From IMG/VR virus record IMGVR_UViG_3300027747_001139, positions 1 through 38,572 of that record: a stretch of DNA of 38,572 nucleotides, one strand, 5' to 3'. Below the pieces are notes generated by a model, which did no database searches, was not told the DNA's origin, and saw only the letters and a list, made by a program, of their open reading frames with translations. This stretch comes from a virus. Positions 13,843 to 32,618 of this stretch are shown in pieces. Made by a program: the position numbers and the translations under genes. The stretch's first letter is position 1. Every line of letters begins with the position of its first letter.

Positions 13843-14339
13843 TGTATTTCGACAATATGCAGGATATGTACTATGACTTCCAGAAAGCAAATGGAGACAT
13901 AGACTACGTAAAACTAAAAGACATAACACAGAACGTGCGTTTCAAAATGAATGTTCTGGAAAACATTAGTCTTTATGAATACTACGATATGAGTGATCAG
14001 GATACACCAGAGATCATATCAGAACACTTTTACAAGTCTCCAAAGTATCACTGGGTCATTATGATTGCCAATCAAAAATATGATTATGTGGAAGATTTCC
14101 CTATGGCAGTTGATAGGCTAGAAGCGAAAATTACTGAAAAGTATGGTGCTGGTAATGAGTACGATACACACCACTACTTATACAATGGGTGGATAGTTGA
14201 CAATATAACTTATCCAATGGCATCTGCTGTTTCGAACTATCAATATGAGTTTGATCAGAATGAAGCCAAACGCAGAATACGAATTATCAGTCCAGGATTA
14301 CTTGATCAGGTCTTAACTGAATTTAGAAAAATAATGTAA
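13842..14339 (+). CDS. 53: gp53-like baseplate wedge subunit
   Basis: A 165-residue protein (T4 gp53 is 196). In T4 it clamps the wedge and hub and has a LysM-like core. The stretch LYEYYDMSDQDTPEIISEHF, YKSPKYHWVIMIANQKYDYV matches the family hallmark (YEYY...DTPE.IA..FYG...HWVIM..N). TAATG overlap with gp48 and the adjoining gp27 ATG show tight coupling. Neighbours gp48, gp27 and gp5 fit a hub operon. Confidence 0.88.
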   Translation: MYFDNMQDMYYDFQKANGDIDYVKLKDITQNVRFKMNVLENISLYEYYDMSDQDTPEIISEHFYKSPKYHWVIMIANQKYDYVEDFPMAVDRLEAKITEKYGAGNEYDTHHYLYNGWIVDNITYPMASAVSNYQYEFDQNEAKRRIRIISPGLLDQVLTEFRKIM

Positions 14340-15628
14340 TGGCGAAAAAAGATGGTTTAAGATTTGCTGGTGACGTAGACATTGAAAGAGTTGAAATAGT
14401 CTCTTCCAATGGTCGTGGTGTTGAAGTTACCAATATGATTGCAGAGATTCAGATATTCGAGGATATCTTTGCTCCCTGCGTTACAGGCACAGTTACAATA
14501 ACCGACAGTATTGACTTAGTAAATGTCTTTCCATTCGTTGGTGAAGAAAAGATCATACTTAAAATTAAGACGCCAGCAATTCCTGATAAGATGAAAGAAG
14601 CAAGAATTGATCAGCAATTCTATATCTACAAGATGTCTGATCGTAAGGTGTTGGGTGATAAGAACGTATTCTATATACTACACTTTTGTTCCTACGAATT
14701 GGTTTCTGACGCTAACTTAAAACTTTCTCGTTCGTTCGAAGGTAAGATCTCCGACCTTGCCAAGAAAATAATGAAGACTGAGATTGTTAAGTCCGATCTT
14801 CCAATGGACATCGAAGAAACCAAAAACTCTGTAAAGTATATTTCCAACTACTGGTCTCCGTATAGGAACATGACTTTTCTGGCTGAACGAGCAATCAGCA
14901 CCAGCAATGTTCCAAACTATGTGTTCTTTGAAAATCGCCATGGTCTAAACTTTGTTTCACTATCTGGTTTATTCACTAAGAAAGATAGAGAGCAATATAC
15001 ATACGACTCTTTCGAACGTCTACCAAAGAAACATGGTTCCATTCAAAATCCAGAATTATCATTTTCTAGGTTCTTAGACTATACCATTGAAACAGGTTTT
15101 GACTACATCGAGCGCATCAACAATGGTATGTTTGGTAGCAAGATGATCTCGCATGACATTCTAACTAAAAAGTACAGTACGCAGAATGTTAGTATGTTTG
15201 CTAACTTTGAGCAAGAAAAACATCTGAACAAGTATCCAGTCTCCACACAGGATGTGTTGGCACGTTATAATTCAAACATCTTTAATTACCCTAAGTACAA
15301 TAGCCATATGAATGGTTCGGGTGATGATGGTGTTCAAAATTGGTTACAACGCAGAGTATCACTAATGGCTCAGGCGCATGCGTACAGAATGACAGCTGAA
15401 GTTCCAGGTAGAACAGATATTACTGTGGGTGAGATTGTTACTGTTACAATTTACAAGTCTTCACAAACACTAAAAGAAAATGAAAACGATTCTTTGACTG
15501 ACAATATGTTTTCGGGTAGATACATTATCAGCGCATTGAACCACCGCATTACTCGTGAGAAGCATGAGATCCATATGGAACTATTGAAAGATTCGTTAAT
15601 CGTTGATCCTAAGACAGGCAAGAAATGA
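14339..15628 (+). CDS. 27: gp27-like baseplate hub subunit
   Basis: A 429-residue protein (T4 gp27 is 391), predicted to form the trimeric hub torus that carries the gp5 spike. The N-terminus GDVDIERVEIVSSNGRGVEV, EIQIFEDIFAPCVTGTVTIT, FPFVGEEKIILKIKTP is the tail-hub beta-barrel pattern. Later YRNMTFLAERAISTSN and AYRMTAEVPGRTDITVGEIV fit the second barrel. It starts in the gp53 stop codon, and the gp5 ATG overlaps its own stop by 4 nt. Confidence 0.85.
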   Translation: MAKKDGLRFAGDVDIERVEIVSSNGRGVEVTNMIAEIQIFEDIFAPCVTGTVTITDSIDLVNVFPFVGEEKIILKIKTPAIPDKMKEARIDQQFYIYKMSDRKVLGDKNVFYILHFCSYELVSDANLKLSRSFEGKISDLAKKIMKTEIVKSDLPMDIEETKNSVKYISNYWSPYRNMTFLAERAISTSNVPNYVFFENRHGLNFVSLSGLFTKKDREQYTYDSFERLPKKHGSIQNPELSFSRFLDYTIETGFDYIERINNGMFGSKMISHDILTKKYSTQNVSMFANFEQEKHLNKYPVSTQDVLARYNSNIFNYPKYNSHMNGSGDDGVQNWLQRRVSLMAQAHAYRMTAEVPGRTDITVGEIVTVTIYKSSQTLKENENDSLTDNMFSGRYIISALNHRITREKHEIHMELLKDSLIVDPKTGKK

Positions 15629-18423
15629 AGTTATATACTGGTGTAGTTGAAAATCGTAAAGATCCCTTAAAGCTGGGTCGTTGTCAGGTTCGTATTGTCG
15701 GGTTACACACCGAACAAAAAACAGTACTACCAACGGCAGATTTGCCATGGGCATTCCCAATGCAACCAGTTACCTCTGCTGCTATGAATGGTATTGGTCA
15801 TGCGCCAGTTGGTCCAGTAGAAGGTACATGGGTCATTATCTTCTTTAGAGATGCTGACGAACAACAGCCAATTATGATGGGTACAATCGGTGGTATCCCT
15901 CAGGCTGATTCCAAAAAGATAGATGAGTTTACAGACTTTGTTGAATTGTTTCCAAGTGCCATCGCACAAACTGGAACTAAGAATGGTGATGTAGCGCAAA
16001 ACGTAGTTTTAGATGGTTCTGGCAATCCAATAACAACTGGTTCTGGTGGTGTGTTAACCACTGGTAATGCCGATACACCAGCACAGGCAGCAAATACAGC
16101 CAATCAACAATCAGCTGAGGCAAAAGTTAATTCATCAATTCCTGGATCTCCACCATACGGTAAGAAAGAAGGTTCTTCAGTAAACATTCCTCAGACGTCT
16201 TACAAAGGTATTCAGGCACTGGGTAATGCCATGACATCGTTGGGTATTACAGCTAGGTATGCACGTGCAGCTATCCTTGGTATTGCCATGGGTGAATCAA
16301 AATGTGTGCCACAGAATGAAGCGTATAGCTACAACATATCCAGATTGAAGCAGGTGTATAGTTGGATTGATGATGAGAACGCAGCAAAGTATGCCAACTG
16401 GAAAGGTTCTCGTGAAGACTTTTTCCGTTACATCTACGGACCAACAACTCGTTCTGGCAAATCGTTGGGTCATACTGCTGCCGATGATGGTGCAAAGTAT
16501 TGGGGTCGTGGATACATTCAGCTAACTGGTAAAGGTAACTATACCAAGTACGCAAAACTATCTGGAGTGGATATTGTTAACTCTCCAGATCTTACCAACG
16601 ACTATGACAAAGGTGCGTTGGTTGCTGTGGCTTATTTTAAGGATCGTGTTAAGGTTGAACAAAACGATCCATCATATTTTGAAGCAGCATGTCGTGCTGT
16701 AGGTTATAACGTACCAGACATTAAAGCTGCAAAGAAAGCATACTACGAATACTTTCTTGGTGAAACTGCCACTGATGACAAGTCTGCAGTTCCAGGGGAA
16801 ACACCTGCCAACGTAGAAGTAAACGATCAGGGTATTCCACTAGATCGTGTTCAAAATATGGATACAGGATTCTCTGATCCAGATATGAAGTATCCACTAC
16901 GTTCTCATATCAACGAACCAGATACAAACCGATTAGCTCGTAGCAAAGTTTCAGGAACTGCCGTTGAAAAGAAAGATGCCACACGTGCCACTGGATTGCC
17001 AGTTGCCGATGATACTACATTTAGTCAACCAGCTGTTCCATTCAATGCCAAGTATCCATACAACCATGTGTTTGAATCTGAGTCTGGACACATTCAAGAG
17101 TTTGACGATACGCCAGACAACGAACGTATTCACCTGTATCACAAGACAGGCACATTCTATGAAGTTGATGTAAACGGCACTCAGGTTAACCGTATTACTG
17201 GTGATGGTTATACAATCATCGATAAGAACGGCTACATCTATATTAAAGGTGCATGTACCATTACAGCTGAAGGTGCTACAAACATCTTTGTAAATGCCGA
17301 TGCCAATATTAAAGTGGCTGGTATAACCCAAATCGATCTACTCAACGATGCCACAATTAATGTTGCAGGAGATTTAGATATGAATGTGGGTGGAGCATTT
17401 CAGGTCAAGTGCGACACCTTTACGCTAGAAACCACTGGCGACTCCGTAGACATTTCTTCAGTGGCTGGGGTAAACATTCAGGGTGAAGACGCTATCAATG
17501 TTAAGTCTGGTGCTGCAGTAAACGTACAGGGTGGTGGTGATATTAGCCTTAATGCTGGTGGCAATGTTGCCGCAGACGCAGGTGGTATTATCGATCTTGC
17601 CAATGGATCTGCAGCTGATGCTGACGATGCAGCTAAGACAAGTCTTGGTGAACCGCCAGCTGTTGGCAGTCCAGAGAACAACGTGTTTGCAACTCTTGAA
17701 GTTCCAACTCGTAATATGGAAGATGAAGCAGCATTCGAAACTCCAGAAGACAATGCATCAGCTGAAGGTCAGGCTGCAAACAAGAGAGAGATCGTGGGTG
17801 ATAAGAGTACTCCAGAAAACACAAATGCTACTGAGTCTGCCAATGCGCCAGCCAACAATATTACACCACAGGGAGCAAACTGCGATTTAATCTATACAAT
17901 GAATACTTTCCCAACATCGTTTAGATTGTCACCAAATGTTAATGTAGGAACTATGATTGCTGGTAGTCACATCTTACAAGGACAACAGGCTCTTGGTAAG
18001 ATGATGAGTATTCAAGAGATCGTTTGTAATATGAAAGGTTTGGCAGAAAACTGTATCGAACCAATTATGGCTCTTGCTGGTGGTAAGGGTGGTTTGATTA
18101 TTACATCAGGCTTTAGACAGAATGGTGTTGTGGCCAATTCATCTGCAACTTCACAGCATCCTGCTGGACAAGCATTCGACTTCCAGTTGGCTGGTAAGAT
18201 AAATGACTATCAGGCAACGTATGACTTTATTCAGAAAGTTGCCGCAAGTGTTCCGTACGATCAATTGATTCTGGAGTATAGAGATCCAGGGGTCAATGGT
18301 AATAACAGAAAAGTTCGTATCTGCTGGATTCACTGCTCGTTCAAGTACACTGGAAACCGTAAGATGGCATTCACTATGTTGAACGACAAGACCTATAAGA
18401 AAGATGGTTTCGCTTTACTATGA
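15625..18423 (+). CDS. 5: gp5-like spike with GH19-like lysozyme and M15-like peptidase domains
   Basis: A 932-residue protein (T4 gp5 is 575), the cell-puncturing spike. Domains: OB fold about 1-95 (LYTGVVENRKDPLKLGRCQV...MMGTIGGIP). GH19-type muramidase about 190-385, with AMGES (Glu224), QNEAYSYN (Glu232) and YWGRGYIQLTGKGNY. A gp5-type linker and beta-helix about 415-670, with GHIQEFDDTPDNERI and many V-N-hydrophobic repeats. An Ala/Asn linker. Then a C-terminal M15-like peptidase about 755-932, with TSGFR, SQHPAGQAFDFQ (His845, Asp852), DQLILEY and WIHCS (His903), the zinc-site pattern of D-Ala-D-Ala peptidases. T4 has a single lysozyme domain of a different family here. It overlaps gp27 by 4 nt. 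Confidence 0.88.
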   Translation: MKLYTGVVENRKDPLKLGRCQVRIVGLHTEQKTVLPTADLPWAFPMQPVTSAAMNGIGHAPVGPVEGTWVIIFFRDADEQQPIMMGTIGGIPQADSKKIDEFTDFVELFPSAIAQTGTKNGDVAQNVVLDGSGNPITTGSGGVLTTGNADTPAQAANTANQQSAEAKVNSSIPGSPPYGKKEGSSVNIPQTSYKGIQALGNAMTSLGITARYARAAILGIAMGESKCVPQNEAYSYNISRLKQVYSWIDDENAAKYANWKGSREDFFRYIYGPTTRSGKSLGHTAADDGAKYWGRGYIQLTGKGNYTKYAKLSGVDIVNSPDLTNDYDKGALVAVAYFKDRVKVEQNDPSYFEAACRAVGYNVPDIKAAKKAYYEYFLGETATDDKSAVPGETPANVEVNDQGIPLDRVQNMDTGFSDPDMKYPLRSHINEPDTNRLARSKVSGTAVEKKDATRATGLPVADDTTFSQPAVPFNAKYPYNHVFESESGHIQEFDDTPDNERIHLYHKTGTFYEVDVNGTQVNRITGDGYTIIDKNGYIYIKGACTITAEGATNIFVNADANIKVAGITQIDLLNDATINVAGDLDMNVGGAFQVKCDTFTLETTGDSVDISSVAGVNIQGEDAINVKSGAAVNVQGGGDISLNAGGNVAADAGGIIDLANGSAADADDAAKTSLGEPPAVGSPENNVFATLEVPTRNMEDEAAFETPEDNASAEGQAANKREIVGDKSTPENTNATESANAPANNITPQGANCDLIYTMNTFPTSFRLSPNVNVGTMIAGSHILQGQQALGKMMSIQEIVCNMKGLAENCIEPIMALAGGKGGLIITSGFRQNGVVANSSATSQHPAGQAFDFQLAGKINDYQATYDFIQKVAASVPYDQLILEYRDPGVNGNNRKVRICWIHCSFKYTGNRKMAFTMLNDKTYKKDGFALL

Positions 18424-18474: not shown

Positions 18475-19038
18475 ATGACAATTAGAGTTACGCAATCCAA
18501 TGAGATCGGCATTCCCAGTGCTCCAGCTGGTGACCAGTATGGATCTGGGGATGAAGCGCAGTTACAATTTTATTTAAAATCTGTATATGAAGGAACGTCA
18601 TTTTCCGTGGATTTAACTTTTGATGGTGTTTATATTGATATCGCAGAAGAAAAAACTTACTCGCCAGCAACAAACGTAACATTTACCGCACCAAGCACTG
18701 GCATCGTTATCACAAAGTTATCCAACAGTTCTGTTAGAGTCACTGGTCCATATTCCAACCCATTTCCAAATACGTTTTATCGATTTAAGATGGCTGATTA
18801 CACTACGAAAATTCTTCCTGCCAGCACTACTGAACATTGGATCGGTTTGGTAGAATACAACCCACCAAGCCCCACTTACATAGAAAAGACATTTGATCTT
18901 GCAGTGACTATTCCTGCTGATCCAGTTTTGGGTGGAAACCCAACTACTGAAACTATTACTATGCACCAGTGGGTTTACTGGACATATTCCAGCGCAAGAG
19001 ATTCTATCAGAAGTCTTGCCGCACGAGGAGAAAAATAA
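18475..19038 (+). CDS. hypothetical virion protein between spike and PAAR tip
   Basis: A 187-residue, beta-rich protein (MTIRVTQSNEIGIPSAPAGD...). No Cys, few Lys, many Thr/Ser/Pro, as in structural proteins. It ends RDSIRSLAARGEK, and its last codons carry the GAGGAG ribosome site of the PAAR gene. No convincing ribosome site precedes its own ATG. The short gap before it contains TCAAGTTT twice. Position between gp5 and gp5.4 homologues suggests a baseplate or spike role. I recognise no family. Confidence 0.75.
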   Translation: MTIRVTQSNEIGIPSAPAGDQYGSGDEAQLQFYLKSVYEGTSFSVDLTFDGVYIDIAEEKTYSPATNVTFTAPSTGIVITKLSNSSVRVTGPYSNPFPNTFYRFKMADYTTKILPASTTEHWIGLVEYNPPSPTYIEKTFDLAVTIPADPVLGGNPTTETITMHQWVYWTYSSARDSIRSLAARGEK

Positions 19039-19369: not shown

Positions 19370-19771
19370 ATGGCTACAGCAACTAAAAGACAACGTACAT
19401 TTTCAGACTTAGATCTGAATTTCACAGCTCACCCAGTGACTGGAGACGTGGCACGACTATACGACGAGAATGCTATCAAGCGTTCAGTACGTAACCTGCT
19501 TCAAACAAACAACTTCGAGAGACCATTTCACAGCGAAATAGGCTCTCAGATCCGTGCACTGTTATTCGAGCCAGCATCTCCAATTTTAAATACCATGCTG
19601 AAGCGAGTTATTACTGATACTATTAGTACCTTTGAACCAAGAGTTGTAGTAAACAGTGTTACAGTTTCTTCAAACGCAGACAATAATTCACTGAATGTTA
19701 CCTTGGTATTTACCATAGTGAATACAGTTAACCCAGTAACAATGAATGTTGTTTTACAGAGAACACGATAA
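19370..19771 (+). CDS. 25: gp25-like baseplate wedge subunit
   Basis: A 133-residue protein, the same length as T4 gp25 (132). It joins the wedge core to the sheath-initiating site. Family hallmarks are FSDLDLNFTAHPVTGDVARL, AIKRSVRNLLQTN, ERPFHSEIGSQIRALLFEP and ISTFEPRVVV with the conserved Glu-Pro-Arg. It is followed by gp6 in a TAATG overlap, as gp25 and gp6 homologues often are in contractile systems. Confidence 0.93.
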   Translation: MATATKRQRTFSDLDLNFTAHPVTGDVARLYDENAIKRSVRNLLQTNNFERPFHSEIGSQIRALLFEPASPILNTMLKRVITDTISTFEPRVVVNSVTVSSNADNNSLNVTLVFTIVNTVNPVTMNVVLQRTR

Positions 19772-26189: not shown

Positions 26190-29100
26190 ATGACTATCAA
26201 TTTTAACGTAGATCCGTACTTTGACGATTACGACGAAGATGACAAATATCTTCGTGTACTGTTTCGTCCAGGATACCCAGTACAAGCACGTGAGTTAACC
26301 CAAGCACAGACAATCCTGCAAAATCAGGTTACTCGTTTTGGTAATCATGTGTTCAAACAGGGTTCGATGGTAACTCCTGGTCAGGTTGCTTATGATGGTG
26401 AATTCCACTACATTAAACTTCAAACAATCTACAACAACATTGAAGTTACATCTTATGTGAGTCAGTTCGTTGGTCAAACAATTATCGGTACAAACAGTGG
26501 GGTAGAAGCGTTAGTGCTTTATGCCACTGAGTCTACTGAAACTGATCCTCCAACTCTGTACGTTAAGTACATGAACTCTGGTACTGATACAGCTACCAAA
26601 GTTTTTTCTGATAATGAACAAATCATTTCTCAAGATGATACAAACCAGCGTTATGCATTCACCTACACTCAGGATGCAACTGGTCTAGGTTCATCGGCTT
26701 CTATTCAAAAGGGTATCTATTTTGTAAATGGATTCTTTACTCAGGTAGATGCTCAGACTGTTATTCTTGACAAGTATACAAATAGCCCATCATACCGTAT
26801 CGGTCTTGATGTTTCTGAGGATGTAGTAACTCCTGAAGAAGATAACAATCTATTTGACAATGCGCAGGGTTCAACGAACTATGCTGCTCCTGGTGCCCAC
26901 CGCTACAAGATCACTCTCACTCTCGAGAAACGTGCCACTGAAGATGATGGCGACGTGGACTTTATTGAATTGCTACGTATTAAAGCTGGTGAAACTCAGT
27001 ATCAGGTTAAGAATGCTGCTTATGCAGACATTATGGATACCATGGCTCGTCGTACTTATGATGAGTCTGGTAACTACAGTGTAAGACCTTTTGGTATCGA
27101 TGTTCGTGAACACCGTAATAATGATCGTGGCACATGGGATGCAGCTGTTTCATATAAAATTGGAGACATCGTTGCCAATGGTCTTGGTCAATACTACGTT
27201 GCAAGAACTTCTGGTATTTCCACAACTAACAAACCAGTTCATACACTGGGTGTTGCTTATGATGGTACTTCTCTTTACTGGGAATATACTACAACACCAC
27301 CATACAATCGTGGTGTTTACTCTGTTGAAGATGGTGGCGATGAAGCATATCTTGCCATGGGTATCGAAAAAGGCAAAGCATACGTACAGGGTTACGAGAT
27401 CGAAAAACTCGCAACCACTTACGTTAAAGTTCCAAAGTCTAGAACATATAAACAAATTCTGGATGGTAAGATCTCTACTCCAGTTGGAAACTTCGTAGAG
27501 GTAACAAACCTCTATGGTCCTCCAAACCTTCCAACATTCCCAGTTGTTTATCTGCGTGATGCCAAAACAGTGACACGTGGTGCTGCAGCTGGCAATCAGG
27601 TTGGTACTGCTCGTATTCGTGGTATCGAATTGGAATCTGGTGCCAATGGATCAGTTACTGCATACTACAAAGTAATGCTGTATGATATCGACATGAACAC
27701 AGGTATTAGTGATATCATTATTAATAGTGGTGGAACTGGTGCTAGTTCTCCAACAATCACAATTGCAGATCCATTTATTGATGGTATCAGCGGTAATGTT
27801 GTAGCATCATGGACTAGCGGAATGTCTTCCGCTGTCGGTAGATATATTTCTTATACCAACTCTGGTGTAAAGAACTTCTATAAAGTTACTGCATATAGCG
27901 GTGTACTAAGTTCAAGCGCACCTACTCATACGTATAGCACTACGACTTATGGTGGAGCAACTCTGCAATATGTTGGCACAACTGCCACTGCTACAGCTGT
28001 AGTTTCTAGTGGTGCTGTAGTTGCTGTTCAGATTACACGTCCAGGTAATGGATATGTATCGCCTCCAACCTTTACGTTCTCCAATGGCTCTGCTTCAGTA
28101 TCATGCTCTGTTGGTAAGTTGGACTTTTCTCGTTTAGTGAAACAACTACACTATCCAAGCGATGCAGCTGGTAATGCTTTCTCTGCTGATGCTTACCCAG
28201 TATACAATGCTGGTGTTGGTCAGATCACCTGTAGCGGTGCTGGCTCTAGCGCATTGGTTTCAGGTAACGGAACATATTTCCTAAGACAAACTAAAGTCGG
28301 TGATATAATCCGTGCAACAACTACGGCTGGCGCAATTTCTGAATTCAAAGTTGGCTTTATTGTTGACAATGTAACCTTATATGCATCAACCAACGTAACG
28401 AATGGTTTCTCTGGCAGTGCATTCACAGTTCTAAATAATCCGCTGTTTGAACCAACAAACTTGGCTCTGTTGTATAGACTTCCATACGATACAATTCGTC
28501 GTATTCGTTCAGTGGACGATGCAACAATTGGAACTACTACACGTGTTCGCCAGTATTTCGCTGAGCAGACAGTTAACTCATCGTATCAGTTAAACTACTC
28601 TACTGATACTGTTGACCAAACTTTCCTTACGCCAGATAGTCCATCCTCTACGGATCGTAACTATCTGTTGGTCAAAACATCTGGTGGTAACCTAAGCACT
28701 TATCCAGCTGGAACAGTTATTGCTCCAACTTCGATCGTGTTTAGCGATACGACACAACGTAACATTACTATTACAGTTCCAAGCGGATTGTATGATGTTA
28801 CTGGTTCACGTGTTCGTTTGATTGCAACAGTTAACAAGTCACAATCTTCGGCTGGCGAGAAAGCGAAGACACTAAACTTTGGTGAGATTCTAAATGTAAC
28901 TGCTCAGGCAAACGTACAGGCTACAACGATTAGTCTTGGCAAGGCAGATGTATTTAAGATCGAAAAGATTCTTCAATCAACTGTTGCCTTTGGATCCCCA
29001 TACGACCCTGCAGCTGTAATTGACATCACAGACAACTATACTTTGGATAATGGTCAACGTGATACTCATTACGATATTGCATCCATTACAAGAAAACCTG

Positions 29101-32100
29101 GAGTTTCTGCTCCGCAGGGTCCAATTCGTGTTTACTTCGAATACTTCACGCATACAGGCACTGGTGACTACTTCTCTGTAGACTCATATTCTGGTATCAA
29201 TTATAAGGATATTCCTTATTATAAGGGAACTTCTTTAGCAAATTATATCGATTTTAGAGCACGTATTAATGATGATGGTAAATCCTTTAGTTCTGCTCCG
29301 AATCTTCCAAAGCGTTCAGAAGACTTAATCGCTGACTATACTTACTATCTCGCACGTCGTGGATCTTTGGTTCTGAATGGCGATGGTACTTTGGTTAGCA
29401 AAGAAGGTGTTGCAGCTGATAGTCCAGATTATCCAGAAGCACCAGGAACTGGTATGGTATTGTACAATGTTACATACATGCCTTTCACTTATAATACCAC
29501 CAACAAGCAGGTTATCATTACCTCCATCGATAATCGTCGATACACTATGCGCGATATTGGTAAGTTGGAAACTCGTATCGAAAAGCTGGAAGAGTTTACT
29601 AAACTCTCTATGTTGGAACGTGCCACTGCATCTACACAGATTATTGACACAACAACACTGAGCGATCGACTAAAAGCTGGTTTCATTGTTGATACCTTTG
29701 ATGGTCACTCTGTTGGTGGAACCACAGAGATTGACTATCGTGTTTCTGTGGATACAATTAATCGTGAAGCACGTCCGTTGTATAACATCGAGAACATTAA
29801 CCTAATCGAGAAAAACTCGAATGATAACCAACGTAGCACTAATGGTTACATTGTTAATGGTGATGTGTTTACATTACCATTCACTCACAAGGTAATGATT
29901 AGTCAGTTGAAGGCATCTAGAACTGAGAACATTAATCCATTTGCCATCTTTACTTTCATCGGCAATCTAACACTTAACCCAGCCTCTGATGAGTGGGTTG
30001 ATATTGAAAACATAGATGTAACTGTATTTGATGACAAAGAGAAACAATCTTTGGAATCTATTGCCAATGCAAGTTGGAATCCAGTAACTGGTAAACAGGG
30101 TATTTTGGGTAACTACTATGGCGCATGGCAAGAAGTTGTAACTGGTCGTACAAGAACTACATCTAGTAATTCTAGAACAGTTTCTGACTTTACTCGTCCA
30201 CATGCTTCTGCTGGTGGTCCAAACTCTGGTTGGTTTAGACAGGTTCATGATGAAATTGATGCCAAAGAAATTGGATATCAAAGAACTCAGTATACCACTG
30301 AAGTTAAATTGATCGGTAGCGGAACACCTATCCTCACTGAAGATAAGGTAACAAGTTCTACAATTATCCCATACATTCGTTCACGTCCACTGCTATTCGT
30401 TGGAAAGGGTATCAAACCTAGTACAACAGTAAATGCATTCTTTGATGGCACTTCTGTAAATGATTATGTTACTCCTGCCAAACAATTGGTTATTACCAAC
30501 CGCACTGGTACATTTGATGACAAGTCCAATGTCGGTGCAAATAATGCCGAAGCTGCACGTTTAAGTACTATCAATGGCAATACCGCACTTGCTTATAATA
30601 AGGGCGATATTGTTTATGTTGCGACACGTTCAAGCACTTCTTATACTGTTGACAACTCTCCAGCCACTGGTGTTGTTGCTCTAGTTGAAGATAATGCGAC
30701 AACTATTCGCATAGTTAATGTATCTGGTACATTTACTGCTGGCGATATTATTGTTGGTTCTGTTTCTAGTGCACGTGCAACAGTTGTTTCTATTGCAAGC
30801 CCAACATCTCTGGTAACAAATCAGAATGGTGAAGTTGCTGGTGTCTTCAATATTCCAAATACTAGCAAACTACGTTTCCGTTGTGGAACACGTATCTTTA
30901 GATTATCAGATACTGCAACAGATCTAAATTCAACAACTCGTGCTGAGGCATCATATCTCGCATCTGGCGTTAAAGAAGTTCATAATAGATCGTTTAGTTC
31001 TATCCGTCACTATGAGATCGCAACACGTGAACTACCAAGACAAACCGATGGTGCTCCACCGAATACATGGGTAAACGATCCAGCTTCGGCTCGTACTGTT
31101 GGTGATACTAATTGGTATGATCCGCTGGCACAAACCTTCTTGGTTCAAAATCCAGGTGGTATGATGTTGAGCAAAGTTAATATTTACTTCCAAAGTAAAG
31201 ATGCCAACATGCCTGTGCGCATGGAAATTCGTGAGACAGTGAATGGTTATCCAGGAAAAATTATCCTACCATTCTCTCAGATTTCGTTGAACCCATCACA
31301 GGTTAACATCTCCGATGATTCCTCTGTGGCAACTACTTTTACATTCCCAGTACCGATCCCACTCCGTGACAAGGGTGAATATGCATTGGTTCTACTGTCC
31401 GATTCCAATAACTATAAAGTTTGGATTGCTCAGATGGGTGAGAAAGATGTTCTTACAAGTCGTCCGATTTCTGAACAACCTTACATGGGTGTCATGTTCA
31501 AGTCACAGAATGGCTCGACATGGACTGCGGAACAATATCAGGATCTGAAGTTTGAATTGTATCGTGCTCAGTTTGATACCAATACTGTGGCTACTATTGA
31601 CTTCGTAAATGATACACTCCCAACAGATACGTTGAAGAGCAATCCATTCGAGACAACTACTGGTTCTGGCGTAATTTATGTTACTCACTACAACCATGGT
31701 ATGCCGAGCGGATCCAAAGTTAGATTCAGTAATGTAACTGGAACTTATCATGGTATCTCAGCAGCACTTTTGACCTCTGCAAATACTGTTACACGTATTG
31801 ATAATAGTAAATATTCTATTACTGTTTCTGGAACAGCCAATGCAACTGGTTTAACTGGTGGTGATGGTATAGGAGTTACACGAAATGTTCAGTTTAATCT
31901 GTTACACCCACAGGTCGAAGAATTTATCCTACCAGATACCAACATTCAATATCAGGTTCAGGCATGTACAGGTAAGTCTCTGGACGGAACTGAAGTGCCA
32001 TACGTTCTTGAGGATGTGTGGGTAGATGTTACACCTAATCAGTCTAACTACTTCACCAATCCAAGACTATTGGCTTCTTCACTCAATGAGTTGACCTTAC

Positions 32101-32618
32101 TTAATGGTAGTAAGTCTTTCACTCTGCGTGCTAAGTTATACACAACGAATGATGCGGTAACTCCAATGTTGGATATTCATCGTACCTCAGCACTGGTTGT
32201 TGAGAATATGATTAATAATCAGGATAGTGCCAATATCACTTATGTTGATGAAATTCAGCCAAGGATTGGTTCTTCTTTATCTAAATATATTACCAAGAAG
32301 GTTAAACTTACCACTCCTGGTACTGGTATGTATGTGGCATTTGACGTTAATTGCCCACCAGAAGCCAGTGTTAATGTATACTATAAGACAGCTAAATCTG
32401 CTGATGCGATCTTGTTTGAGTTGCAATCATGGAAACTTTCTGTTCCTGATAAAGACGTAATCCCTAAAACCAATGATGCTACTTCATTCCAAGAAACTAC
32501 CTTTACGGAAGATGAATTGGACGAGTTTGATACGATTCAGGTTAAGATTGTCTTTACCTCTACAAACTCATCGGCTATTCCAAGGATCCAAAACCTTAGA
32601 GTGATTGCGTTGGCATGA
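26190..32618 (+). CDS. giant structural protein, DUF4815 type (baseplate or tail fibre-network protein)
   Basis: A 2142-residue protein, the largest here. The N-terminus NFNVDPYFDDYDEDDKYLRV, LFRPGYPVQARELTQAQTIL, QNQVTRFGNHVFKQGSMVTP is the DUF4815 hallmark of environmental T4-like phages. Two inserts resemble Y.VGDIV..G..Y.A-type modules (about 315-375, GTWDAAVSYKIGDIVANGLG) and two resemble the GNGYVSPPTFTF beta modules of gp7/gp8. A helical stretch near 1125-1160 (RDIGKLETRIEKLEEFTKLS) could trimerise. It occupies the place of T4 genes 9-12, so a gp10-like or connector role is likely. The exact counterpart is not resolved. Confidence 0.75.
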   Translation: MTINFNVDPYFDDYDEDDKYLRVLFRPGYPVQARELTQAQTILQNQVTRFGNHVFKQGSMVTPGQVAYDGEFHYIKLQTIYNNIEVTSYVSQFVGQTIIGTNSGVEALVLYATESTETDPPTLYVKYMNSGTDTATKVFSDNEQIISQDDTNQRYAFTYTQDATGLGSSASIQKGIYFVNGFFTQVDAQTVILDKYTNSPSYRIGLDVSEDVVTPEEDNNLFDNAQGSTNYAAPGAHRYKITLTLEKRATEDDGDVDFIELLRIKAGETQYQVKNAAYADIMDTMARRTYDESGNYSVRPFGIDVREHRNNDRGTWDAAVSYKIGDIVANGLGQYYVARTSGISTTNKPVHTLGVAYDGTSLYWEYTTTPPYNRGVYSVEDGGDEAYLAMGIEKGKAYVQGYEIEKLATTYVKVPKSRTYKQILDGKISTPVGNFVEVTNLYGPPNLPTFPVVYLRDAKTVTRGAAAGNQVGTARIRGIELESGANGSVTAYYKVMLYDIDMNTGISDIIINSGGTGASSPTITIADPFIDGISGNVVASWTSGMSSAVGRYISYTNSGVKNFYKVTAYSGVLSSSAPTHTYSTTTYGGATLQYVGTTATATAVVSSGAVVAVQITRPGNGYVSPPTFTFSNGSASVSCSVGKLDFSRLVKQLHYPSDAAGNAFSADAYPVYNAGVGQITCSGAGSSALVSGNGTYFLRQTKVGDIIRATTTAGAISEFKVGFIVDNVTLYASTNVTNGFSGSAFTVLNNPLFEPTNLALLYRLPYDTIRRIRSVDDATIGTTTRVRQYFAEQTVNSSYQLNYSTDTVDQTFLTPDSPSSTDRNYLLVKTSGGNLSTYPAGTVIAPTSIVFSDTTQRNITITVPSGLYDVTGSRVRLIATVNKSQSSAGEKAKTLNFGEILNVTAQANVQATTISLGKADVFKIEKILQSTVAFGSPYDPAAVIDITDNYTLDNGQRDTHYDIASITRKPGVSAPQGPIRVYFEYFTHTGTGDYFSVDSYSGINYKDIPYYKGTSLANYIDFRARINDDGKSFSSAPNLPKRSEDLIADYTYYLARRGSLVLNGDGTLVSKEGVAADSPDYPEAPGTGMVLYNVTYMPFTYNTTNKQVIITSIDNRRYTMRDIGKLETRIEKLEEFTKLSMLERATASTQIIDTTTLSDRLKAGFIVDTFDGHSVGGTTEIDYRVSVDTINREARPLYNIENINLIEKNSNDNQRSTNGYIVNGDVFTLPFTHKVMISQLKASRTENINPFAIFTFIGNLTLNPASDEWVDIENIDVTVFDDKEKQSLESIANASWNPVTGKQGILGNYYGAWQEVVTGRTRTTSSNSRTVSDFTRPHASAGGPNSGWFRQVHDEIDAKEIGYQRTQYTTEVKLIGSGTPILTEDKVTSSTIIPYIRSRPLLFVGKGIKPSTTVNAFFDGTSVNDYVTPAKQLVITNRTGTFDDKSNVGANNAEAARLSTINGNTALAYNKGDIVYVATRSSTSYTVDNSPATGVVALVEDNATTIRIVNVSGTFTAGDIIVGSVSSARATVVSIASPTSLVTNQNGEVAGVFNIPNTSKLRFRCGTRIFRLSDTATDLNSTTRAEASYLASGVKEVHNRSFSSIRHYEIATRELPRQTDGAPPNTWVNDPASARTVGDTNWYDPLAQTFLVQNPGGMMLSKVNIYFQSKDANMPVRMEIRETVNGYPGKIILPFSQISLNPSQVNISDDSSVATTFTFPVPIPLRDKGEYALVLLSDSNNYKVWIAQMGEKDVLTSRPISEQPYMGVMFKSQNGSTWTAEQYQDLKFELYRAQFDTNTVATIDFVNDTLPTDTLKSNPFETTTGSGVIYVTHYNHGMPSGSKVRFSNVTGTYHGISAALLTSANTVTRIDNSKYSITVSGTANATGLTGGDGIGVTRNVQFNLLHPQVEEFILPDTNIQYQVQACTGKSLDGTEVPYVLEDVWVDVTPNQSNYFTNPRLLASSLNELTLLNGSKSFTLRAKLYTTNDAVTPMLDIHRTSALVVENMINNQDSANITYVDEIQPRIGSSLSKYITKKVKLTTPGTGMYVAFDVNCPPEASVNVYYKTAKSADAILFELQSWKLSVPDKDVIPKTNDATSFQETTFTEDELDEFDTIQVKIVFTSTNSSAIPRIQNLRVIALA

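Follow-up and report, generated by a model that had tools for sequence, protein, structure and literature searches.

A T4-type gp5 spike with predicted GH19 glycosidase and C-terminal M15-like peptidase domains in the virus record IMGVR_UViG_3300027747_001139

The window analyzed here is a stretch of 38,572 nucleotides that makes up the IMG/VR virus record IMGVR_UViG_3300027747_001139. Its gp5 is encoded by one uninterrupted 932-codon frame with an ATG start, and the chain runs from an OB domain through a GH19 domain, a beta-helix, and a linker to an M15-like zinc-peptidase domain (Table 1). Residues 458-925 belong to PHROG_430 (baseplate hub and tail lysozyme, E 2.5e-92), and T4 gp5 (1wth/1k28) is matched at E about 2e-45. 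Like T4 gp5 (1k28, 1wth, 1pdl), the protein combines an OB collar, an internal wall hydrolase, and a beta-helix needle, and as in T4 the genes of the hub and the PAAR tip adjoin it; synteny points to the hub protein as gp27. By these sequence features, the window gp5 is a T4-type central spike. It differs from T4 gp5 in a GH19 domain that takes the place of the T4-type lysozyme and in a linker and M15-like peptidase that follow the needle. The T4 chain ends at residue 575, according to the available part of PMC4576200.

Table 1. Genes, domains, and residues of the gp5 locus, in window coordinates.
Feature	Position	Strand	Basis
Tail hub protein adjoining gp5, gp27-like by position	14339..15628	+	phrog_350 tail protein, E 1.1e-82
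gp5-like central spike protein, 932 aa	15625..18423	+	ORF, PHROG_430, T4 gp5 match
OB-fold collar domain, aa 1-95	15625..15909	+	Gp5_OB
GH19-type glycosidase domain, aa 186-385, T4-lysozyme position	16180..16779	+	9ms6, 7r6s, Glyco_hydro_19
E224, presumed catalytic acid of GH19	16294..16296	+	Invariance, family knowledge
E232, second GH19 glutamate	16318..16320	+	Invariance
YWGRGYIQLTGKGNY GH19 core motif, aa 292-306	16498..16542	+	Sequence
Neck and triple-stranded beta-helix region, aa 411-660	16855..17604	+	phmmer, Gp5_trimer_C; boundary approximate
Linker from needle to peptidase, aa 661-755	17605..17889	+	Low pLDDT, invariant E705-T706-P707
M15-like zinc-peptidase (LAS fold) domain, aa 756-932	17890..18420	+	AF2, 1lbu, phrog_894
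H845, putative zinc ligand	18157..18159	+	Invariance
D852, putative zinc ligand	18178..18180	+	Invariance
E884, probably catalytic (role inferred)	18274..18276	+	Invariance
H903 of WxH motif, putative third zinc ligand	18331..18333	+	Invariance
187-aa protein between gp5 and PAAR, function not assigned	18475..19038	+	No family match
PAAR tip protein, 106 aa	19038..19358	+	phrog_281, E 4.2e-17
gp25 baseplate wedge protein	19370..19771	+	GPW_gp25, E 9.2e-15

Related loci were collected in two scans, each of which was counted over its best 80 loci; the search peptides behind the first contain no catalytic residue. Single long ORFs with the architecture of the window gp5 occur in at least 79 viral loci, some of them truncated at contig ends. 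In the non-redundant set of 35 members, the active-site residues of both domains are invariant, too. Nothing was found in favor of an assembly or frameshift artefact that joined two genes into gp5, although some relatives (Melnitz, Milchi, and Vibrio 1.244) do have the parts on separate genes. The fused frame shared by the at least 79 loci makes such an origin very unlikely, the invariance of both active sites argues against it as well, and the fusion recurs in the cultured phage BUCT-ZZ01. Frameshift or misassembly was rejected on the shared frame as the source of the fusion, and its probability is close to nil.

The OB domain is matched by Gp5_OB at the N terminus (Pfam, E 3.6e-27), and 35 of its 95 positions are invariant in the 35 sequences. 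Further along, residues 439-605 align with T4 gp5 348-563 (phmmer), and Gp5_trimer_C is present in 27 of the 35 non-redundant members (Pfam). The full-length AF2 model is poor (pLDDT 60) and holds no usable needle or OB geometry. Most of the linker lies below pLDDT 70 in this model, which is weak evidence for a linker as the OB domain is badly modeled there too. The linker residues E705-T706-P707 are invariant in 35/35 sequences, and a search of phage records with residues 660-764 returned nothing even at E 10.

The domain in the lysozyme slot is matched by Glyco_hydro_19 (Pfam, E 1.3e-5), precisely at the 25.5-bit cut-off for the window protein and found in 35/35 non-redundant members. It is also matched by the PWe1 endolysin 9ms6 (E 5.4e-12), and the fold comparison gives VIA Z scores of 17.5 to 7r6s and of 16.5 (9eoi) and 16.4 (4ok7, 8p8e) to endolysins. 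Neither Pfam nor PHROG matched a T4-type lysozyme between the OB domain and the needle. Both E224 and E232 are invariant in 79/79 covering sequences among the matches listed, window included, and from family knowledge we take these glutamates to be catalytic. The core, which is of the GRGxIQLTG type, contains the invariant residues G294, R295, G296, T301, G302, N305, and Y306. Sequence, fold, and active-site conservation agree with the earlier placement of a GH19-like domain, with E224 and E232, at the T4 lysozyme position. The domain is probably a glycan-cleaving enzyme with an intact active site.

At the C terminus the sequence signal is weaker. Residues 799-923 match the endolysin family phrog_894 (E 5.2e-9), and Peptidase_M15_3 (PF08291) stays below threshold on the window gp5 (15.4 bits versus a cut-off of 23.2) but passes the cut-off in relatives of the lineage (27.5 bits in locus L102, 28.3 bits in L133). 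An M15 profile matched no PDB sequence below E 0.5, and Foldseek alone found nothing for this domain in the PDB at E 0.001, the best matches being Hedgehog proteins at 0.023. The question is settled by the fold, since the domain model (AF2, pLDDT 91.6) aligns with the zinc DD-peptidase 1lbu (VIA Z 12.7, rmsd 2.9, 131 residues aligned); the next-best match has Z 7.6, and the Hedgehog N-domains have Z about 7. Among the matches listed, H845 and D852 are invariant in 80/80 covering sequences (window included), H903 in 77/77, and E884, a residue absent from the sequence-only reading, in 78/78. Of the 177 positions of the domain, only 15 are invariant, and all four of these putative active-site residues belong to them. 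The window gp5 carries the versions SQHPAGQAFD and WIH of a motif, SxHxxGxAxD plus WxH, that we take to be the zinc-binding pattern of the M15 family. The M15-like domain with H845, D852, and H903 that had been proposed behind the beta-helix is thus borne out by sequence, by the conserved putative active site, and by structure prediction, which returned an M15/LAS fold. On sequence and model, the gp5 C terminus is an M15-like peptidase domain with a predicted zinc site.

Downstream of gp5, the 187-aa protein has no match in Pfam, PHROG, or a phage tblastn search, and a homolog lies downstream of gp5 in 15/79 loci among the matches listed. The PAAR tip protein scores below threshold with PAAR_motif (Pfam, 20.1 bits). 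A PAAR gene follows gp5 in 70 of the 73 loci that continue for 400 b or more beyond it (among the matches listed), which indicates that the gp5 peptidase is no substitute for the tip. How the tip attaches when a peptidase lies beyond the needle had been raised as a question; the retained PAAR gene and the M15 domains that PAAR proteins carry elsewhere are comparative evidence on it. Judged from sequence, the peptidase appears to be a tethered cargo beside or beyond the PAAR tip. Elsewhere in the window, a separate Hydrolase_2 wall hydrolase (657-1370) and a holin-like gene could serve lysis.

The M15 lineage of the spikes separates from standalone M15 enzymes in the tree (100/99). In other phages its domain is fused C-terminally to a PAAR protein, which places the peptidase at the spike end, and the lineage is also attached to further spike-operon proteins. 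The residues H, D, E, and H are conserved across gp5 and PAAR carriers (10/10). The AU test does not reject a tree in which the gp5 carriers form a single clade (p 0.286), so the tree sets no direction of carrier switching. PA5oct, Milchi, PpuM, and Vibrio 1.244-like phages share the linker-tethered M15 lineage at the spike end with the window and differ in that the domain sits on the PAAR tip protein and not on gp5. For Milchi, a single-sequence search with the PAAR-M15 protein found two loci only, and an alignment query was used instead.

The mid-needle slot varies by lineage between GH19, Phage_lysozyme2, a VgrG3-like muramidase, and no detected enzyme. In Caulobacter phage Cr30, gp5 has Phage_lysozyme2 in this slot and M15 at the C terminus; the gp5 of locus L102 has the muramidase there, likewise followed by a C-terminal M15 domain. 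No mid-slot enzyme was detected in pf16 and no enzyme domain in the gp5 of Milchi (Pfam) or Vibrio 1.244 (PHROG, BLAST), while the mid-slot match of Melnitz is a sub-threshold VanY. In some relatives M15 is the sole detectable spike enzyme, and a Pfam glycosidase was found in 0/50 non-redundant carriers of the second scan (best 80 loci), which limits the two-enzyme state to certain clades. The earlier claim of a spike with two wall enzymes holds for the window and the loci that share its architecture, and such pairing is not the general rule. Somewhat better than evenly supported is the view that this distinct M15 lineage serves T4-like baseplates as a mobile module dedicated to the spike. Its carrier would be the needle (three copies), the PAAR tip (presumably one), or another protein encoded in the gp5-gp25 operon, and it would change carriers without leaving the spike. 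The glycosidase in the mid-needle slot would be swapped independently of it, and the window would represent the doubly armed state.

A cultured counterpart with this domain order is the gp5 of Synechococcus phage BUCT-ZZ01 (UTS51949.1, Kyanoviridae), which holds OB, GH19, needle, and M15 in 939 aa and shares 33% identity with the window gp5 over 98% of the query. It is annotated merely as a baseplate hub subunit, and the record ends beside gp5, leaving the PAAR region outside. The photosystem family Photo_RC (PF00124) was found in 0/12 records; one of these is BUCT-ZZ01, for which a cyanobacterial host is on record, so the absence is uninformative on the host. Two wall activities on one baseplate protein are also known from Anabaena phage A-1(L), whose hub gp15 has experimental endoglucanase and peptidase activities (PMC10966104, available part); no kinship with the window is implied. 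There the enzymes sit on the hub, and the same text, as far as available, describes none on the spike gp25. The Pseudomonas aeruginosa type VI secretion system (T6SS) spike VgrG2b ends in a zinc metallopeptidase, homologs of which are also grafted onto PAAR proteins (PMC6899460, in part). It differs from the window gp5 in its gluzincin fold with HEXXH and in being an antibacterial effector with an immunity protein, and the excerpt reports no mid-needle glycosidase. Going by these partial sources, hubs with two enzymes are known already, as are spikes that end in a metallopeptidase, and the window gp5 is a variant thereof. A limited literature search of partly available texts found no description of M15 on phage gp5 or PAAR, which is weak evidence of absence.

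Domains, folds, active-site conservation, and PAAR gene retention are established by computation; gp5 activity, zinc, trimer, timing, and geometry we infer. On sequence and models, we consider it likely that the window gp5 is a T4-type spike with two catalytically intact wall enzymes that would cut glycan and peptide at entry. A gp5 trimer would form the needle below the tail tube. Each chain would bear a GH19 glycosidase where T4 has its lysozyme and, on a linker past the needle and adjoining the separate PAAR tip, an M15-like zinc peptidase. Sheath contraction would drive the spike through the outer membrane. The tethered peptidases could then reach the peptidoglycan before or together with the glycosidases, and cleavage of peptide links by the former and of glycan strands by the latter would let the tube pass.

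The C-terminal domain might instead be a folding or assembly chaperone of the beta-helix, perhaps removed at maturation. Its place at the chain end behind a long linker would suit such a role, and cleaved-off C-terminal chaperone domains are described for phage fibers in the available part of PMC4576200. This reading is unlikely, as the few invariant positions include the whole putative active site and the lineage also sits on PAAR tips, which are not beta-helices, and on other spike-operon proteins. Improbable, too, is a loss of catalysis in either domain or in both that would leave only the binding of peptidoglycan, or of a metal as in the fold-sharing Hedgehog proteins. The Hedgehog N-domains are indeed next-best fold matches, yet the H..D..E..WxH set is complete in 77-80 sequences and retained by gp5 and PAAR carriers alike, and both GH19 glutamates are kept throughout the covering sequences, each among the matches listed. 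Endolysins among the relatives of both domains could suggest that the enzymes mainly serve lysis from within and sit on gp5 incidentally; the fusion to the spike in so many loci and the window's own wall hydrolase and holin-like protein make this very improbable.

On the preferred reading of gp5 as an entry spike with two wall enzymes, the end with which T4-like phages pierce the envelope may hold enzymes in two slots and evolve by swaps of wall cutters, which by analogy resembles effector swapping on T6SS spikes. The GH19 and M15 domains are small, well-predicted units and directly assayable. PAAR proteins of jumbo phages are stated to be stand-alone, without effector-domain fusion (PMC7824862, available part). 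This statement is qualified by PA5oct (286.8-kb record), in which a protein annotated and scoring as PAAR carries an M15 domain behind PAAR. Its record note, "putative baseplate hub sub and tail lysozyme, muramoyl-pentapeptidase," names the peptidase, so part of the finding is already present in annotation.

The spike protein gp5 of the window combines an OB domain, a GH19-like domain in the mid-needle slot (the lysozyme position of T4 gp5), a needle, a linker and a C-terminal M15-like domain. Its gene is preceded by a tail hub protein gene and followed by PAAR (the tip protein), gp25, gp6-like and more baseplate genes. A separate Hydrolase_2 wall hydrolase gene and a holin-like gene, both also in the window, can take the lysis role.

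Features of the window, with loci of related spike and carrier proteins (aa, residues of the window gp5)
Feature	Location	Assignment
gp5	15625-18423 (+)	One unbroken frame, 932 aa; phrog_430, baseplate hub and tail lysozyme (PHROGs, 2.5e-92)
OB region matched by T4 gp5 structures	aa 3-135	
Gp5_OB	aa 26-136	Pfam, 3.6e-27
Putative glycosidase	aa 197-341	phrog_181, endolysin family (PHROGs)
Glyco_hydro_19	aa 285-327	Pfam, 1.3e-5, exactly at cut-off
Needle region matched by T4 gp5 structures	aa 439-605	
Putative peptidase	aa 799-923	phrog_894, endolysin family (PHROGs)
Peptidase_M15_3	aa 824-858	Pfam, sub-threshold, 15.4 bits against a cut-off of 23.2
Hydrolase_2 gene	657-1370	
ClpP-like protease gene	1210-1812	PF00574, 1.2e-27; overlaps the end of the Hydrolase_2 gene
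187-aa protein	18475-19038	Between gp5 and PAAR
2142-aa protein	26190-32618	phrog_358 (unknown function) along most of its length; immediately after baseplate wedge genes
Melnitz gp5	L082:3962-7005	OB half and needle half in two genes
gp5 of a genome contig	L102:3667-6372	Mid-slot VgrG3-like muramidase domain (PF21277, 2.7e-52); C-terminal M15_3 above cut-off
Spike-like protein	L098:4390-6381	664 aa; strong M15_3, 60.7 bits
'MS..IFK'-type carriers	L142:2789-4021; L162:3158-4477; L169:3137-4450	

The predicted folds agree with both enzyme assignments. Modelled with 34 relatives, the C-terminal domain reaches a pLDDT of 91.6. Foldseek alone found nothing for this model at E 0.001, its best matches being Hedgehog N-domains (0.023), members of the same LAS fold group. 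A second look with VIA placed the zinc DD-peptidase 1lbu at the top (Z 12.7, rmsd 2.9, 131 aligned), far above the Hedgehog rows at 7.6 or less. The full-length model is of low overall quality (pLDDT 60); its C-terminus matches 1lbu too (Z 10.5), and its residues 175-385 resemble endolysins of the GH19 type and proteins related to them (Z 17.5 for 7r6s, 16.5 for 9eoi, 16.4 for 4ok7 and for 8p8e).

A first scan of viral contigs with six search peptides, none of which contains a catalytic residue, yielded 413 stretches encoding gp5 relatives. The best 80 of these represent 79 loci, all with one long frame, several of which end at contig edges. The residues named in the sequence-only reading of the two domains all lie where that reading placed them. 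In this alignment of 80 sequences from the best 80 of 413 (window included, near-copies left in), E224 and E232 of the GH19 domain are kept in 79 of 79 covering sequences, and the M15 domain keeps H845 and D852 in 80/80, E884 in 78/78 and W901 and H903 in 77/77 covering sequences. The same residues are also invariant among 35 non-redundant members; just 15 of the 177 positions of the C-terminal domain are invariant, and these include all four putative active-site residues. Glyco_hydro_19 is found in all 35 members and M15_3 in 16 (E up to 0.1).

The T4 spike is driven across the outer membrane, after which its lysozyme opens the wall. GH19 endolysins cleave glycan strands, and M15 enzymes cleave peptide stems or cross-bridges. 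For gp5, the analysis shows the domains by sequence, their folds and their conservation; enzyme activity, order of action and geometry are inferred. The peptidases, placed past the needle, would reach peptidoglycan before or together with the glycosidases.

The tip is retained alongside the peptidase. Among the loci from the best 80 of 413 stretches, a PAAR frame lies 3' of gp5 in 70 of the 73 that extend 400 bases or more downstream, none being found at L039, L040 and L041; for a downstream stretch of 1500 bases or more, the count is 57 of 58. The peptidase is therefore no replacement for the tip, which in T4 (gp5.4) sits on the needle end according to PMC4576200. The segment of about 95 residues between needle and peptidase has a pLDDT mostly below 70 in the full-length model, which hints at a flexible linker; this is weak evidence, since the model is just as bad for the OB domain, whose presence is clear. 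The linker residues E705-T706-P707 are invariant in 35/35 non-redundant members and absent from the inspected linkers of the Synechococcus phage BUCT-ZZ01 and the Caulobacter phage Cr30. The 187-aa protein encoded between gp5 and PAAR has no match in Pfam, PHROG or phage tblastn; homologs lie 3' of gp5 in 15 of the 79 loci (best 80 of 413 stretches), and several other relatives have a different-looking frame of 150-190 aa at its place.

With the M15 domain alone as query, 49 phage records were matched: nine gp5-type (Melnitz 4, Cr30 2, pf16 2, BUCT-ZZ01 1), 25 PAAR-type from Pseudomonas or Vibrio phages and 15 standalone enzymes. Proteins were inspected in 12 records, the others being typed by annotation or near identity; these were the four gp5-type phages, three standalone enzymes and five PAAR-type proteins (Milchi, PA5oct and Vibrio 1.244 by Pfam, Peetri by PHROG, 207E48 by sequence only). 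The mid-slot holds GH19 in BUCT-ZZ01, Phage_lysozyme2 in Cr30 (5.5e-29) and a sub-threshold VanY in Melnitz; the Pfam scan detected no enzyme there in pf16. The L102 contig is binned as Anaerolineae, and the family of its mid-slot domain takes its name from a T6SS spike protein. T4 gp5 is cleaved after assembly, and the Melnitz gene split, between mid-slot and needle, falls roughly at that place.

A second scan used ten M15 domains from gp5 and PAAR carriers as queries. Its best 80 of at least 527 confirmed loci gave 50 non-redundant carriers with M15 in the C-terminal part, the best M15 stretch of L202 being short (297-344 of 596). Since one of the two search patterns includes the equivalents of H845 and D852, the search itself accounts in part for their invariance among these carriers. 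HMMs built here class 25 of these 50 as gp5-like, of which 18 have both OB and needle and seven the needle only; eight are PAAR-fused and 17 are neither. None of the 50 matches a Pfam glycosidase at E 0.01 or the GH19 HMM, so what stays constant within this best-80 sample is the peptidase, and double arming of the spike is confined to certain clades. Fourteen of the 17 remaining carriers lie upstream of a gp25 frame, which was not found downstream of L158, L162 and L193; in this gp25 search, matches labelled "gp5" can stem from the M15 domain itself. By eye, L158 and L193 appear to start with PAAR-like stretches. A similar, uncharacterised N-terminus ('MS..IFK' or 'MSW..FK') recurs in twelve of the 17, and this part had no PHROG match in the four members scanned. 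The three in the table and nine alike are proteins of about 380-460 aa with a C-terminal M15 domain in a baseplate operon.

Related arrangements are published. PMC10966104 reports endoglucanase and peptidase activities, demonstrated by assay, for the phage A-1(L) hub, and PMC6899460 describes a zinc metallopeptidase at the C-terminus of VgrG2b, with homologous peptidases on PAAR proteins too; thus the logic of carrier switching is already known in T6SS. A jumbo-phage survey (PMC7824862) says that phage PAAR proteins are without fused effector domains, which the PA5oct PAAR-M15 protein contradicts. How far M15 switches carriers among T4-like phages appears to be new, as does the spike armed with two enzymes.

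A tree was built from a chosen subset of 49 M15 domains: the window, 20 loci out of the 34 in alignment A1, the four named gp5 phages, two genome-contig spike loci, six PAAR carriers, and 16 standalone proteins, of which 13 are from genome loci and three from phages. The six PAAR-fused rows cluster (97/95). A single clade of all 26 gp5 rows is not rejected (AU p 0.286), so carriers may have switched in either direction. One branch (100/99) separates the 26 gp5-fused and six PAAR-fused rows from the 16 standalone enzymes and the spike-like protein L098, whose M15 domain, by its clustering with the standalone enzymes, is likely an independent capture.
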